Shown here: positions 1 through 8,021 of the stretch, one piece after another
Layout of the letters: every line of letters begins with the position of its first letter
Numbering within the stretch: the first letter of the stretch is position 1
Virus record (IMG/VR): IMGVR_UViG_3300030118_005390
Location: 15,578-37,079 of that record
Direction: 5' to 3' (one strand)
DNA: 21,502 bases
Source: a virus
The notes under the pieces: generated by a model
The model's database searches: none
Told to the model about the DNA's origin: nothing
Seen by the model: only the letters and a program-made list of their open reading frames with translations
Translations under genes and position numbers: made by a program

Positions 1-381
1 AAGAAAACACAAGCCTATAAACAAGCGGAAAGAAAAATACATTGTGTATGGGATGATTGGGGAAAATGGTATATATCACCCGAAGGGTTAGTATTTAGAT
101 GTTGTTGGACGGGTGGTCACTACTATGACACAGGTCAAAAACGGTTTTACTATCCTCCTAAGTTTGAACGTATGTTTAATGGATTTCATGTTCCCATCGA
201 AAAAATTATAAGTTATGATTATTGGAGTAAGTTAAGAAATTTTTTAGATGGTTATGAAAGATCATTTTCACTATGTAAATCACAGTGTGGAAAAATCGTT
301 TCATCAATCGAAAAAACAGAAGAAAACTTAAAAACAGGAGAAAAAACTGTATTTGATTCGTCAAATCAATGGGGTAACTAA
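1..381 (+). CDS. Radical SAM/SPASM-type protein, C-terminal part (5' end outside window)
   Basis: The frame is open from base 1, so this is the last 126 residues of a longer protein. An internal ATG at 172 is not needed as a start. The fragment has the cysteine layout of a SPASM/twitch auxiliary iron-sulfur domain: Cys15 in HCVW, a strand 'YISPEGLVFRCCW' with the CC pair at fragment residues 34-35, and a later C-x3-C at 92-96. In the family, this domain follows an N-terminal radical SAM barrel carrying CxxxCxxC, which would lie left of the window. Such proteins typically modify peptides or carbohydrates, and the substrate here is unknown. The gene ends in TAATG, overlapping the next start by one base, so translation is probably coupled. 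A second, complete radical SAM/SPASM gene lies at 17054-17974. The family call rests only on the C-terminal motif. Confidence 0.6.
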   Translation, partial: KKTQAYKQAERKIHCVWDDWGKWYISPEGLVFRCCWTGGHYYDTGQKRFYYPPKFERMFNGFHVPIEKIISYDYWSKLRNFLDGYERSFSLCKSQCGKIVSSIEKTEENLKTGEKTVFDSSNQWGN

Positions 382-593
382 TGAGAGCAAAAACTGTTAG
401 CAAAATTGGAAAATTCAAGTTTTTAAGATTCCCGAATCGGGGGATTCGCAGAAATGAACGAATTACAAAACTTGCCACGGGTGGAAAATTAAGTTATTCT
501 ACACTTGAAAAATTTATCAACAAAGAGCGAGGTTTAGGATATCCGATAAAGTATTCTAAACCAATAGGATTTAAAAGAAAGAAGAGAAACTAA
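381..593 (+). CDS. Small basic protein of unknown function (70 aa)
   Basis: The gene starts at the ATG of a TAATG junction with the upstream radical SAM-type gene and ends just before the riboswitch-like RNA. The 70-residue product is very rich in Lys and Arg, with a C-terminal tail ending KRKKRN, and has no transmembrane segment or signal peptide. The composition suggests binding to nucleic acid or to an acidic partner, but no family was recognised. Coupling to the upstream gene is the main evidence that it is real. Its stop codon directly abuts the P1 stem of the downstream RNA element. Confidence 0.5.
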   Translation: MRAKTVSKIGKFKFLRFPNRGIRRNERITKLATGGKLSYSTLEKFINKERGLGYPIKYSKPIGFKRKKRN

Positions 594-643
594 CGTTCAT
601 CCCATAAGGGGACGGAAGTAAGCAATCATGCTGAAGGAACGCA
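594..643 (+). promoter_or_regulatory. Glutamine riboswitch-like aptamer (glnA / Downstream-peptide type)
   Basis: This RNA has the three-way junction and conserved blocks of the L-glutamine aptamer. P1 pairs CGTTC (594-598) with GAACG (637-641). P2 is a TCCC/GGGG hairpin (600-603/608-611, loop ATAA, one G-U pair). P3 is AGCA/TGCT (621-624/629-632, loop ATCA). Between the helices are GACGGAAGTA (611-620) and GAAGGAACGC (633-642), which match the remembered family consensus. Downstream-peptide RNAs typically precede very short ORFs in marine cyanobacteria and related marine sequences. Here the next ORF starts 30 bases after P1 and encodes 49 residues, which fits that class. Control of the downstream gene by glutamine is inferred from the family. 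Confidence 0.88.
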
Positions 644-669
644 CTTTAACCTAACAGAAGGGAGAAGTG
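642..669 (+). promoter_or_regulatory. Possible expression-platform hairpin enclosing the Shine-Dalgarno site
   Basis: Directly after P1 of the aptamer, CACTT (642-646) can pair with AAGTG (665-669). Inside it CCT (650-652) can pair with AGG (659-661) across a 3x3 internal loop. The Shine-Dalgarno stretch AGAAGGGAG (656-664) would sit in and beside this hairpin, three to eleven bases before the ATG at 672. Stacking on P1 could couple ligand binding to ribosome access. This is drawn by eye from complementarity, and the inner stem is weak. Confidence 0.35.
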
Positions 670-671
670 TT

Positions 672-821
672 ATGAATAAATATGATTTTAATATTTTTCG
701 TAAGCAGGCAAGGAGAGCAAAAGCATACTTAAGATTGGCTAAATATGCAATCAAGCAGTATAAAACACCTCGCGCCGAGAGAAATATTCTTTCAAACGAT
801 CCACGATTACAAAGGATATAA
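672..821 (+). CDS. 49-aa basic peptide immediately downstream of the glutamine riboswitch-like RNA
   Basis: The ATG at 672 follows a strong Shine-Dalgarno sequence (GGGAG at 660-664). The frame runs to TAA at 819-821, giving a 49-residue peptide that begins MNKYDFNIFRKQARRAKAYL. It is strongly basic in its first half (RKQARRAK, YLRLAKYAIKQYK), probably as an amphipathic helix, and has no signal peptide or cysteines. Its position fits the short ORFs that Downstream-peptide RNAs are known to precede, so it is the likely direct target of the riboswitch. The next gene starts one base after its stop, so the two are probably co-translated. Its function is unknown. The strong SD, spacing and riboswitch argue that it is real despite its length. 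Confidence 0.6.
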   Translation: MNKYDFNIFRKQARRAKAYLRLAKYAIKQYKTPRAERNILSNDPRLQRI

Positions 822-822
822 C

Positions 823-1164
823 ATGAACAAAGTTAAAGATGGTCATACAGATGTTGCCTCTGCTAGAAGACAGTGTGCTAATATTATTGAAGATTGTAAA
901 GATATAATGAATGCTTTACCAGCTGATGATGAAGCATCTTTACCAACCTGGTGGACTAATAAACTTGCGGTAGCCGCTGCATATTTAAACTCTGACAGGG
1001 ACTATTTAGTCTACACTATGCAGCAAGCCTCAGACACAGAGGCTACTGCAAATAGTGATGATGATCAACAAGTAACAATAAATTTTACAGCCGATGAGGA
1101 TGATATGATGCCTCCATCTGCTAAAATGGTTAAAGAGAGTCAAAATGCCTCTGAAGAAGGGTAA
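823..1164 (+). CDS. Acidic hypothetical protein, probable virion-associated (113 aa)
   Basis: The start chosen is the ATG at 823, which has AAAGGA (811-815) upstream and lies one base after the 49-aa ORF. An ATG at 745 in the same frame would overlap that ORF by 77 bases and lacks a good ribosome site. The N-terminal 60 residues carry the pattern 'ASLPTWWTNKLAVAAAYLNS', resembling small proteins I remember from structural operons of marine myoviruses. The C-terminal third is acidic and low in complexity (ATANSDDDQQ, FTADEDDMMPP). Its strong acidity contrasts with the very basic proteins on either side. Its precise role is unknown. Confidence 0.65.
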   Translation: MNKVKDGHTDVASARRQCANIIEDCKDIMNALPADDEASLPTWWTNKLAVAAAYLNSDRDYLVYTMQQASDTEATANSDDDQQVTINFTADEDDMMPPSAKMVKESQNASEEG

Positions 1165-2706: not shown

Positions 2707-3241
2707 GGTTACGTAACCATGTTTTATCATAAGGCGCACAGATATTAACTTGCGCCTTACTCGTTTTTATAATTTTTTCTATTATTTTTTTATTCTCAAC
2801 ATCAACTGATATAAATATCAAATCATCTATCCCTAACCAGGAATAATCATAATCAATGGCATCCACATTTACAATTTTAATTGCGTTTTTGCAAGGACTC
2901 GCTCTGATTAGTTTTTTACTTATCACACACCTATTCTCATCAATTTCTATTCCTATTTGATTTATATTAGGATATTGTCTGTGTACATCAAACATGGAAT
3001 AAGGGTACATTCCACTGCCTATCAGCACTAAATTTTTACATGAGTTAAATTTATATCTTTGTTTTTTGTCTCTTAATGTTCTAACAATCCAAGCGTTTTT
3101 CTCTGCCATATCATACGGTTTAGAGTAATCTTTTTCAATAAGATAAGATTTTAAGAGAGATATCTCACTTTGTACAATATACTCTTTCCACTTTATTTCT
3201 TCATTTTTTAAATCATTCATTGTGTATTTTTTTGATGACAT
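2687..3241 (-). CDS. SAM-dependent methyltransferase-like protein (nicotianamine-synthase-like Rossmann domain)
   Basis: The start at 3241 has CGGAG seven bases upstream; ATGs at 3262 and 3220 lack a site. This gives 184 residues. The middle holds a class I methyltransferase core: 'NLVLIGSGMYPYSMF' (glycine-rich SAM loop), 'INQIGIEIDENRCVISKKLI' (acidic end of strand 2), then 'IVNVDAIDYDYSWLGIDDLIFIS'. The GSG-x-x-P loop and overall plan recall nicotianamine synthase and related aminocarboxypropyl or methyl transferases. The N-terminal 60 residues are helical and charged. It overlaps the glycosyltransferase gene upstream by 29 bases, so the two are probably co-translated. It is the last gene of the leftward block and overlaps the plus-strand late operon by 20 bases. 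The substrate is unknown. Confidence 0.6.
   Translation of the reverse strand: MSSKKYTMNDLKNEEIKWKEYIVQSEISLLKSYLIEKDYSKPYDMAEKNAWIVRTLRDKKQRYKFNSCKNLVLIGSGMYPYSMFDVHRQYPNINQIGIEIDENRCVISKKLIRASPCKNAIKIVNVDAIDYDYSWLGIDDLIFISVDVENKKIIEKIIKTSKAQVNICAPYDKTWLRNLISSFS
2730..2768 (+). terminator. Probable intrinsic terminator of the plus-strand late operon
   Basis: TAAGGCGCA (2730-2738) pairs with TGCGCCTTA (2751-2759) in a nine-base GC-containing stem with a 12-base loop. Five T follow at 2764-2768 after a four-base spacer. It lies 24 bases after the last plus-strand stop. It is embedded in the C-terminal codons of the convergent minus-strand gene, where the hairpin bases also encode NICAPYDK. 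On the minus strand no T-run follows, so it should act only on rightward transcripts. Confidence 0.6.
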
Positions 3242-6423: not shown

Positions 6424-6876
6424 CTAAGTAGCAAGGTCAGTTTGATCTTTAATGCAGGTTAACCAGTCATCTAATTTTGTTACTTTAAAGTGACAACCAA
6501 ATGATTTCACCTCAATATAGAAGTCAACACTTAACTCATCATCAAATGCCACAAAATCTTTTGAACGATTCCATCTAAATATTAGTAGTGGTTTCTTTTT
6601 CATAACTTCTGCCTCACGAACTGCTTGCCTCCAAAATTGTAGCATATCAGTTGTTTTAGAAGTTAATAGATTATTCCATTCAATATCTTTATAATGCTTA
6701 CATTCAATAGCGTAAGGCCACCATGCGGTATCATGAGGTGTCCATATGTCCCCTTTTAAATAATCTATTGATCCAGATAAGGGAACTCTTCTAAACTCTT
6801 TTCCAAACTCAGATGTGAGACGAGTTGCTATTTTTTGCTCATAAGCTGAGCCTTTGGCTTTACTTTTATTGGCCAT
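6424..6876 (-). CDS. PD-(D/E)XK nuclease, Holliday-junction-resolvase-like (Hjc type)
   Basis: The order of motifs matches Hjc-type resolvases and related phage PD-(D/E)XK nucleases: 'KAKGSAYEQKIATRL' with Glu13, 'RRVPLSGSIDYLKGDI' with Asp43, and 'AIECKHYKDIEW' with Glu58 and Lys60. These supply the E...D...ExK metal site. It is 150 residues long, close to single-domain resolvases. The start shares bases with the SHMT stop (TAATG), which supports coupling. A role in resolving branched replication intermediates, or in host DNA breakdown, is likely. T4 uses the unrelated gp49 for resolution, and no gp49 homologue is seen in this window. Confidence 0.75.
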   Translation of the reverse strand: MANKSKAKGSAYEQKIATRLTSEFGKEFRRVPLSGSIDYLKGDIWTPHDTAWWPYAIECKHYKDIEWNNLLTSKTTDMLQFWRQAVREAEVMKKKPLLIFRWNRSKDFVAFDDELSVDFYIEVKSFGCHFKVTKLDDWLTCIKDQTDLAT

Positions 6877-8021
6877 TACCTATCAAGTAAATTACAGATC
6901 TTATGTGCTATAGTTTTAAAATCTGCTTCTTTAAGTCCTCTAGTGGTTTCTGCAGCAGTTCCGATTCTAAACCCACTTGTTTCAATAAAATTACGTGGAT
7001 CATTTGGTACACCGTTTTTATTAACTGTTATACCATTAGCTTCTAATTTATCTGCAGCTTCTCTACCACTATACTCACTATCACTTAAGTTGACAAGAAT
7101 TATATGACTGTCTGTGCCATTGGTCTGAATTTTAAGTCCTCTATCATTAAAAACTTCACACATCGCTTTAGCATTAAGAATAACCTGTTTTATATAGTCT
7201 ATAAAAGAATTATCAAGAGCCTCTAAATAACACTGAGCCTTAGCTGCAATTATATTCATTAAAGGGCCTCCCTGTGTTCCAGGAAATATTGCACTATTTA
7301 TCTTTTTAGTATAACGACTATCATTCCAAAGTATCATACCACCACGTGGACCACGTAATGTTTTATGGGTCGTGCTAGTAACTACATCTGCATATGGTAA
7401 AGGACTATCGTATTGTTTTGCAGCAACTAATCCGCTGTAGTGTGCCATGTCACAAACAAGTTTTGCCCCCACCATGTCAGCTATTTCTCTAAATGCTTTC
7501 CAATCTATTTGTCTCGGATATGCACTTGCTCCTGCCACTAAGACATGAGGTTTATATTGTGCAGCTATTTTGGCAATCTCCTTATAGTCCAATAACCCAT
7601 CTTCATTAACTCCATAAGTTATAGATTTATAAACTTTGCCACTTAATGTTGGAGGGGCTCCATGACTTAAATGTCCACCACTAGCTAAATCCATGCCCAT
7701 TAAAATATCACCTGGATTCATTAGTGCCTGATAAACAGCAGTGTTTGCATTAACTCCGCTATGCGGTTGCACATTTGCAAATAAACAATCATATAGTTTA
7801 GTAACAGATTCAATAGCCAAATTTTCAATCTCATCCATTTGTTCACAACCATTATAGTAACGTTTACCTGGGTATCCTTCAGCATATTTATTTGTAAATA
7901 CGCTACCACATAAGTCCATAACAGCCTGACTTGCAAAGTTCTCACTTGCTATTAATTCAACAGTGTCTTGTTGTCTTTTATACTCATTTGTTAATATAAA
8001 GCTAATTTTTGGGTGTGTCAT
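6876..8021 (-). CDS. glyA: Serine hydroxymethyltransferase
   Basis: This PLP enzyme turns serine and tetrahydrofolate into glycine and methylene-tetrahydrofolate. The protein aligns along its length with bacterial GlyA: 'ELIASENFAS', 'TNKYAEGYPGKRYYNGCE', 'FANVQPHSGVNAN', 'GGHLSHG', DMAH (Asp191, His194), the PLP lysine in 'TSTTHKTLRGPRGG' (Lys220), and near the end 'VNKNGVPNDPRN' and 'TSGFRIGTAA' with the substrate-binding Arg. At 381 residues it lacks about 35 C-terminal residues present in E. coli GlyA and a few at the N-terminus. All active-site motifs remain. ATGA overlap with the thermonuclease gene and TAATG with the next gene place it firmly in the operon. Its product is the one-carbon donor for ThyX encoded about 2 kb downstream. 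Confidence 0.95.
   Translation of the reverse strand: MTHPKISFILTNEYKRQQDTVELIASENFASQAVMDLCGSVFTNKYAEGYPGKRYYNGCEQMDEIENLAIESVTKLYDCLFANVQPHSGVNANTAVYQALMNPGDILMGMDLASGGHLSHGAPPTLSGKVYKSITYGVNEDGLLDYKEIAKIAAQYKPHVLVAGASAYPRQIDWKAFREIADMVGAKLVCDMAHYSGLVAAKQYDSPLPYADVVTSTTHKTLRGPRGGMILWNDSRYTKKINSAIFPGTQGGPLMNIIAAKAQCYLEALDNSFIDYIKQVILNAKAMCEVFNDRGLKIQTNGTDSHIILVNLSDSEYSGREAADKLEANGITVNKNGVPNDPRNFIETSGFRIGTAAETTRGLKEADFKTIAHKICNLLDR

Follow-up and report, generated by a model that had tools for sequence, protein, structure and literature searches.

The stretch of DNA analyzed here (the window, 21,502 nucleotides) comprises bases 15578-37079 of a 37,079-base IMG/VR virus record. On its plus strand, a 70-aa gene is followed by a glutamine-type aptamer, a ribosome site, a 49-aa open reading frame and a 113-aa gene (Table 1). 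Virion and tail genes lie upstream of the element on the same strand (locus L121), which makes its placement in a phage late operon, as given in the original prediction, plausible. A scan with the Rfam covariance models bore out the glutamine riboswitch-like RNA that had been predicted at this site. The RF01739 model (Glutamine, glnA leader) was matched in full (model positions 1-53) with 60.0 bits (E 3.2e-11), compared to a gathering score of 35, and this was the one match above threshold in the whole window (cmscan). The predicted conserved blocks are present as GACGGAAGTA at 611-620 and GAAGGAACGC at 633-642; taken together as one pattern, they are found at a single site in the window and in none of 100 shuffles. 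Alignment to the RF01739 model also recovers the P1/P2/P3 three-way junction with the conserved CGGAAGUA and GAAG/GAACGC blocks. Our numbering of the aptamer bases follows, by analogy, that of the 61-nt crystal construct (PMC5393176) with its G23-C60 pair (PMC11477058).

The aptamer had also been likened to the Downstream-peptide class (RF01704, now Glutamine-II). That model scores 16.2 bits in the window against a cut-off of 33, which rules out this class, and its cut-off was passed by none of 19 riboswitch-bearing records. Because the RF01704 score is below the cut-off, the aptamer is assigned to type I (glnA). On folding, the window leader is more stable than shuffled sequence (z -3.4), and across 48 phage leaders the changes in P2 are compensatory, while P1 is invariant. 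From its sequence, the window RNA would be expected to bind L-glutamine. It is highly improbable that the element is a degenerate or chance aptamer-like sequence devoid of function: the match reaches 60 bits, the core is conserved in many phages, and covariation, in the form of compensatory changes in both P2 and the ribosome-site hairpin, already contradicts such a reading.

Table 1. Features of the window locus and of related loci. Positions are those of the window unless a locus is named.
Feature	Position	Strand	Basis or remark
70-aa gene	381..593	+	stop codon 591-593 abuts the aptamer
Type-I glutamine riboswitch aptamer (RF01739)	592..645	+	cmscan
Inserted cassette, aptamer and peptide (approximate extent)	594..822	+	comparison with relatives
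P1 (predicted)	594-598/637-641	+	alignment to RF01739
P2 (predicted)	600-603/609-612	+	alignment to RF01739
J2/3 CGGAAGTA	613-620	+	junction guanines, G22/G23 equivalents, at 614-615
P3 (predicted)	621-623/630-632	+	alignment to RF01739
Linchpin C60 equivalent	642	+	analogy to crystal construct
Ribosome-site hairpin (predicted expression platform)	641..670	+	minimum-energy fold, covariation, matched versus mismatched strands
Shine-Dalgarno AAGGGAG	658..664	+	sequence and fold; partly within the hairpin
49-aa basic microprotein MNKYDFNIFRKQARRAKAYLRLAKYAIKQYKTPRAERNILSNDPRLQRI	672..821	+	viral relatives, dN/dS, predicted helices
113-aa gene	823..1164	+	starts 1 nt past the peptide stop; ribosome site AAAGGA inside the peptide's last codons
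Melnitz 32-aa ORF	L342 (MZ577097), 970-1068		deposited sequence
Second CGTTCATC copies	L122, L124, L125, L126, near locus position 3000-3060		
Peptide family, window type			C-terminal motif RPRAEKNILSxDPRLQKI
Peptide family, aromatic basic peptides			28-38 aa
Peptide family, 64-65 aa type			GTSGY..K.G.N.GKV stretch
Peptide family, LPxYIxxNPxYP type			
Peptide family, YRG types			weak DUF4278 match, 19.7 bits, below cut-off

A ribosome-site hairpin that shares bases with the aptamer

The region between aptamer and start codon is predicted to fold into a hairpin in which 641-647 (GCACTTT) pair with 664-670 (GAAGTGT), with inner pairs at 650-652/659-661. It begins with two bases that also serve the aptamer: 641, the final base of P1, and 642, the linchpin cytidine. 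The minimum-energy fold without ligand has no P1; in it, the full hairpin is formed and closes off the stretch between the ribosome site and the start codon. An alternative in which the ribosome site pairs with the 5' UUCAUCCC strand, noticed by eye, was rejected, as the minimum-energy fold and the covariation favor the GCACUU/AAGUG hairpin. A transcription-termination platform was likewise discarded, there being no terminator-like site on the plus strand near the leader.

The hairpin was evaluated in 48 distinct phage leaders, chosen from 69 non-redundant ones after the result on 83 leaders was known; the 21 left out have mostly other arrangements. Within this set, 97.0% of the cells are paired, a favorable figure because the leaders were selected, and C-G is exchanged with U-A. 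Changes on both sides occur in three of five pairs, and versions with slid strands are at most 63% paired. The covariation was 0.429, compared to 0.256 ± 0.022 for shuffled partners, a value that none of 500 shuffles reached, the shuffles having been made within the same chosen set. When all 83 leaders were taken without selection, the mean stem score was 12.1 for matched strands and 9.6 ± 0.3 for strands mismatched between phages. Roughly one in four of the 83 leaders, YRG types for the most part, fails to form the hairpin. Upon forcing P1 and blocking the C60 equivalent, the mean unpaired fraction of the ribosome site rose from 0.40 to 0.58 (69 leaders, with an increase in 65), a gain that follows in part from the constraint itself.

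In the glutamine-bound crystal structure, G23 is inserted and pairs with C60 (PMC11477058), and the cyanobacterial glutamine riboswitches tested, of both types, activate expression on glutamine binding (PMC6316151). Since the bound state and the hairpin both use the last base of P1 and the C60 equivalent, the two would compete for 641-642. Without glutamine, G641, C642 and the bases from A643 onward would pair with those between the ribosome site and the start codon, leaving the ribosome site closed and P1 broken. With glutamine, P1 would close and C642 would be taken by the linchpin pair with the junction guanine (G615 equivalent), so that the hairpin would lose its lower pairs and the ribosome site would open. 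We consider it probable that this type-I glutamine riboswitch turns on translation of a phage basic microprotein when glutamine is plentiful, and that aptamer and peptide form a recurring cassette. The ON switch is the best model, given the shared bases and the activating cyanobacterial switches, from which we infer the direction of switching. Hairpin and bound aptamer have no more than two bases in common, and with glutamine bound the hairpin could still keep four or five of its pairs, for which reason the gain on glutamine binding may be modest or its sign may differ. In the window, a terminating ribosome could also disturb the aptamer, because the stop codon of the upstream gene abuts P1.

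The opposite direction, in which a glutamine-closed P1 stacks on the ribosome-site hairpin and stabilizes it, such that the peptide is made only at low glutamine, appears unlikely. P1 and the hairpin are immediately adjacent, coaxial stacking is possible, and the four or five pairs from A643 on are compatible with P1. Yet, G641 and C642, without which the full hairpin cannot form, are engaged in P1 and in the G23-C60 linchpin when glutamine is bound (PMC11477058); the ligand-free minimum-energy fold has the full hairpin and no P1; and, in the cyanobacterial switches tested to date, glutamine activates expression (PMC6316151).

The 49-aa microprotein

The predicted 49-aa downstream ORF with its ribosome site is present as described. 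At least 265 viral loci encode relatives of the peptide (search with seven related peptides). In a 24-row alignment of the family, M1, N2, D5, P33, N38, D43, P44, Q47 and I49 are invariant. The dN/dS of the window peptide against its closest relative (L155) is 0.15, and the median for 186 within-family pairs is 0.22; by these sequence comparisons, the ORF is a true gene under purifying selection. AlphaFold2 predicts that residues 3-31 form a long basic helix and residues 34-40 a short one, followed by a loose tail (mean pLDDT 83, pTM 0.47). The predicted structure has no match in the PDB, and the sequence profile yielded at best a chance-level ribosomal match there (E 0.28). The peptide matched none of the Pfam and PHROGs families (for Pfam, none even at E 1), including DUF4278 of the IF17-like proteins (PF14105). 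It presumably acts as a protein late in infection.

Pairing of aptamer and peptide across phages

The best 80 of the at least 265 viral relatives were kept for a check of the upstream sequence, and the aptamer is directly upstream in 75 of them. These 75 include a variant with P2 changed to GGC/GCC, as well as tandem aptamer copies. Homologues free of the riboswitch are the other five of these 80 IMG/VR loci and those of phages HTVC023P, HTVC103P and HTVC104P, so the peptide can do without glutamine control. A scan of genome contigs returned one more riboswitch-free window-type peptide (L315, 4001-4153); its contig is binned as a Thermoplasmatales archaeon but may come from a misbinned phage.

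Scanning IMG/VR for the exact aptamer core yielded at least 119 stretches. Among the matches listed, 110 of the 111 sites with enough downstream sequence precede an ORF of 13-78 aa (median 42), which starts 16-36 nt past the core. The aptamer-linked ORFs are usually very basic, with a charge per residue of 0.145 compared to 0.006 for other small ORFs with ribosome sites on the same contigs (p 6e-18, a nominal value because the members are related). Several families can be told apart among them, none evidently similar to another (Table 1). Across 29 virus records in which RF01739 is matched one or more times, the aptamer, single or tandem, sits in one place each, with the exception of a single record (G006) with two places, and no window-type peptide was seen in genomes carrying other peptide classes. 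This fits one slot per genome with interchangeable contents, most of the records being fragments. Taken together, the 75 of the best 80 relatives, the 110 of 111 listed sites and the hairpin that shares bases with the aptamer suggest that the glutamine-class aptamer most likely controls the small basic peptide, as had been proposed.

Cultured phages that carry the module

Among isolates, window-type peptides occur only in the SAR11 phages Mosig, HTVC023P, HTVC103P and HTVC104P. In Mosig, an RF01739 aptamer (50 bits) directly precedes a 51-aa window-type relative, MDLLKEIRALKKEKQKEISAKAQLRKRSKESLARPRAKKNLFTDDPRMQGI. In related gene blocks of the pelagiphages HTVC104P, HTVC023P and HTVC106P (L317, L319 and L334), beside membrane-span proteins and M15 peptidases, the small basic peptide found at the corresponding position belongs to one or the other of two dissimilar families.

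The OM43 phage Melnitz has an RF01739 aptamer at 46398-46446 (52.8 bits), and its authors describe a tmRNA controlled by a glutamine riboswitch (PMC9004378). We find an unannotated 32-aa ORF, MTLYQQWCYLKAQKEYRRRQKILMYFRIRLKG, which has a ribosome site and starts at 46469, 22 nt past the aptamer match; the record annotates an opposite-strand 33-aa ORF instead (46492-46593). The leader of the 32-aa ORF has the same GCACTT/GAGTGT hairpin as the window, and its product closely resembles the IMG/VR peptides MTMYQVWCFRKAQEEHRRRQKVLMYLKLLRKG and MTLYQTWCYRKALEEWKKQKILDILFRSRFEG. The target of the Melnitz riboswitch is thus likely to be the 32-aa ORF and not the tmRNA.

The cassette and its neighboring genes

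In approximately 20 relatives of the window phage, the 70-aa gene shares an ATGA overlap with the 113-aa gene or all but abuts it. In the window and in L235, these two genes are separated by aptamer and peptide, an arrangement also seen in the closest relative. Because the flanking genes overlap or abut in those ~20, aptamer and peptide are an inserted cassette. At a third locus (L236, 3631-4000), a riboswitch and an unrelated 83-aa ORF are followed by a remnant of the window-type peptide, RFSKDPRL, before the same 113-aa gene. In our reading, a cassette of ~230 bp recurs in unrelated marine phages, and several dissimilar basic microproteins take up its peptide slot.

A simple scan picked out no promoter near the window element, and the window module appears to be read through from upstream. 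In several T4-like relatives the module comes directly after the major capsid gene, and in others it is elsewhere. A late-promoter-like TAAATA box is found 11-16 nt before the aptamer in 16 of 20 T4-like relatives, and a sigma-70-like promoter, read by eye, is seen past the peptide stop; on account of these two elements the module would be an independent late unit in these phages. In the window, the 1-nt gap makes coupling to the gene at 823 possible. One could thus regard the peptide as a leader ORF, with the switch in reality controlling the gene at 823 by translational coupling, a reading aided by the location of that gene's ribosome site within the last codons of the peptide. We regard this as quite improbable. 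The peptide is under purifying selection and has homologues without the riboswitch, the flanking gene varies between phages, and, of 80 relatives of the 113-aa gene, 78 lack an aptamer in their vicinity. The same contrast, between the 1-nt gap in the window and the separate promoter in the T4-like relatives, leaves the suggested control of the following structural genes weak. The 113-aa gene had no match in cultured phages.

A cyanophage origin of the window was rejected, as the proteins it encodes have their best matches, at moderate identity, in phages that infect a wide variety of bacteria. The cyanobacterial frame of the original prediction fits poorly with the cultured homologues, which are found only in SAR11 phages, and it is the peptide alone that hints at SAR11 as the host of the window phage. 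Elsewhere in the window, a phage-encoded serine hydroxymethyltransferase (6876-8021, minus strand, 483 bits) lies near thyX, nrdA and nrdB, suggesting a folate and nucleotide module.

Candidate functions of the peptide

Our leading guess, held tentatively, is that the peptide is an accessory of the lysis region with a glutamine-tuned output, an idea related to the lysis timing considered in the Melnitz paper. The riboswitch-free homologues adjoin predicted membrane-span proteins in HTVC023P and HTVC104P, an M15 peptidase lies two genes on in HTVC023P and another is nearby in HTVC106P, and a different peptide class stands at the corresponding place of the same gene block in HTVC106P. Against this, the membrane-span neighbors are at most candidates for a lysis role, lysis-type genes are rarely near the riboswitch-linked copies, and no lysis gene was recognized beside the peptide in the window. 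A general link of riboswitch loci to lysis genes was looked for across the loci and was not found.

A role akin to that of the cyanobacterial glutamine synthetase inactivating factors, with the peptide damping host nitrogen assimilation at high glutamine, is doubtful too, though it ranks close behind the lysis guess. The switch, the small size and the strong positive charge are shared with these factors: the cyanobacterial type-I switch controls IF17, and its usual targets are DUF4278 proteins (PMC6316151). The YRG peptides that follow other viral aptamers match DUF4278 weakly (19.7 bits, below cut-off). In contrast, the C-terminal motif of the window peptide is not that of DUF4278, the peptide matches no Pfam or PHROGs family and no solved chain, and the cultured hosts of its relatives are SAR11.

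More broadly, we entertain, at less than even odds, the following account. Unrelated marine phage lineages would share a cassette, usually one per genome, whose glutamine switch governs the output of one of several interchangeable basic microproteins; by this means the virus would read host nitrogen status late in infection and adjust a common process, be it lysis timing or the host nitrogen enzymes, and the tmRNA reading in Melnitz would be a mis-assignment. Such a system would be a compact model for RNA-based sensing of host nitrogen status by phages of very abundant ocean bacteria. It names the controlled gene, which earlier phage reports missed or assigned elsewhere. The short leader (~90 nt) gives clear mutational predictions, and because two cultured phages, Mosig and Melnitz, carry the module, the idea is testable in the laboratory.

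Comparison with known glutamine riboswitches

Glutamine riboswitches in phages have been published (PMC9004378, PMC9964418), as have glutamine switches before short ORFs (PMC2864571). Within the literature that we searched, what appears to be new is the dedication of a type-I switch to basic microproteins in many marine phages, the window-peptide family and the correction for Melnitz. The shared-base hairpin over the ribosome site also appears to be new in that literature.

The gifB leader of Synechocystis (type I, RF01739) has the same aptamer fold and core and likewise precedes a gene for a small protein, and activation by glutamine is presumably common to both (PMC6316151). The two differ in that the window target is a phage microprotein unrelated to DUF4278/IF17 and in that the cultured phage carriers infect SAR11 and OM43, not cyanobacteria. 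The Downstream-peptide RNAs (type II, RF01704) have the same layout, a glutamine aptamer and then an ORF of 17-100 codons (PMC2864571), whereas the window aptamer remains below the cut-off of that model. In the cyanophages P-SSM7, S-PM2, S-H25, S-MbCM7 and DSL-LC02, a glutamine aptamer-like RNA precedes a small hypothetical gene, but these leaders match RF01739 more weakly than does the window (27.7-35.6 bits at the best site of each) and the peptides are different. In four of the five (P-SSM7, DSL-LC02, S-MbCM7 and S-H25), a second copy of CGTTCATC, the 5' strand of the aptamer, adjoins the start codon; because GGAACG could pair with either copy, a self-competing start-codon switch is possible there. 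In the fifth, S-PM2 (L123, 2993-3135), two tandem glutamine-type aptamers are located before a YRG-repeat hypothetical protein. The riboswitches of Melnitz and Mosig (PMC9004378) are like that of the window, each with an RF01739 aptamer at a similar spacing from a small basic ORF.
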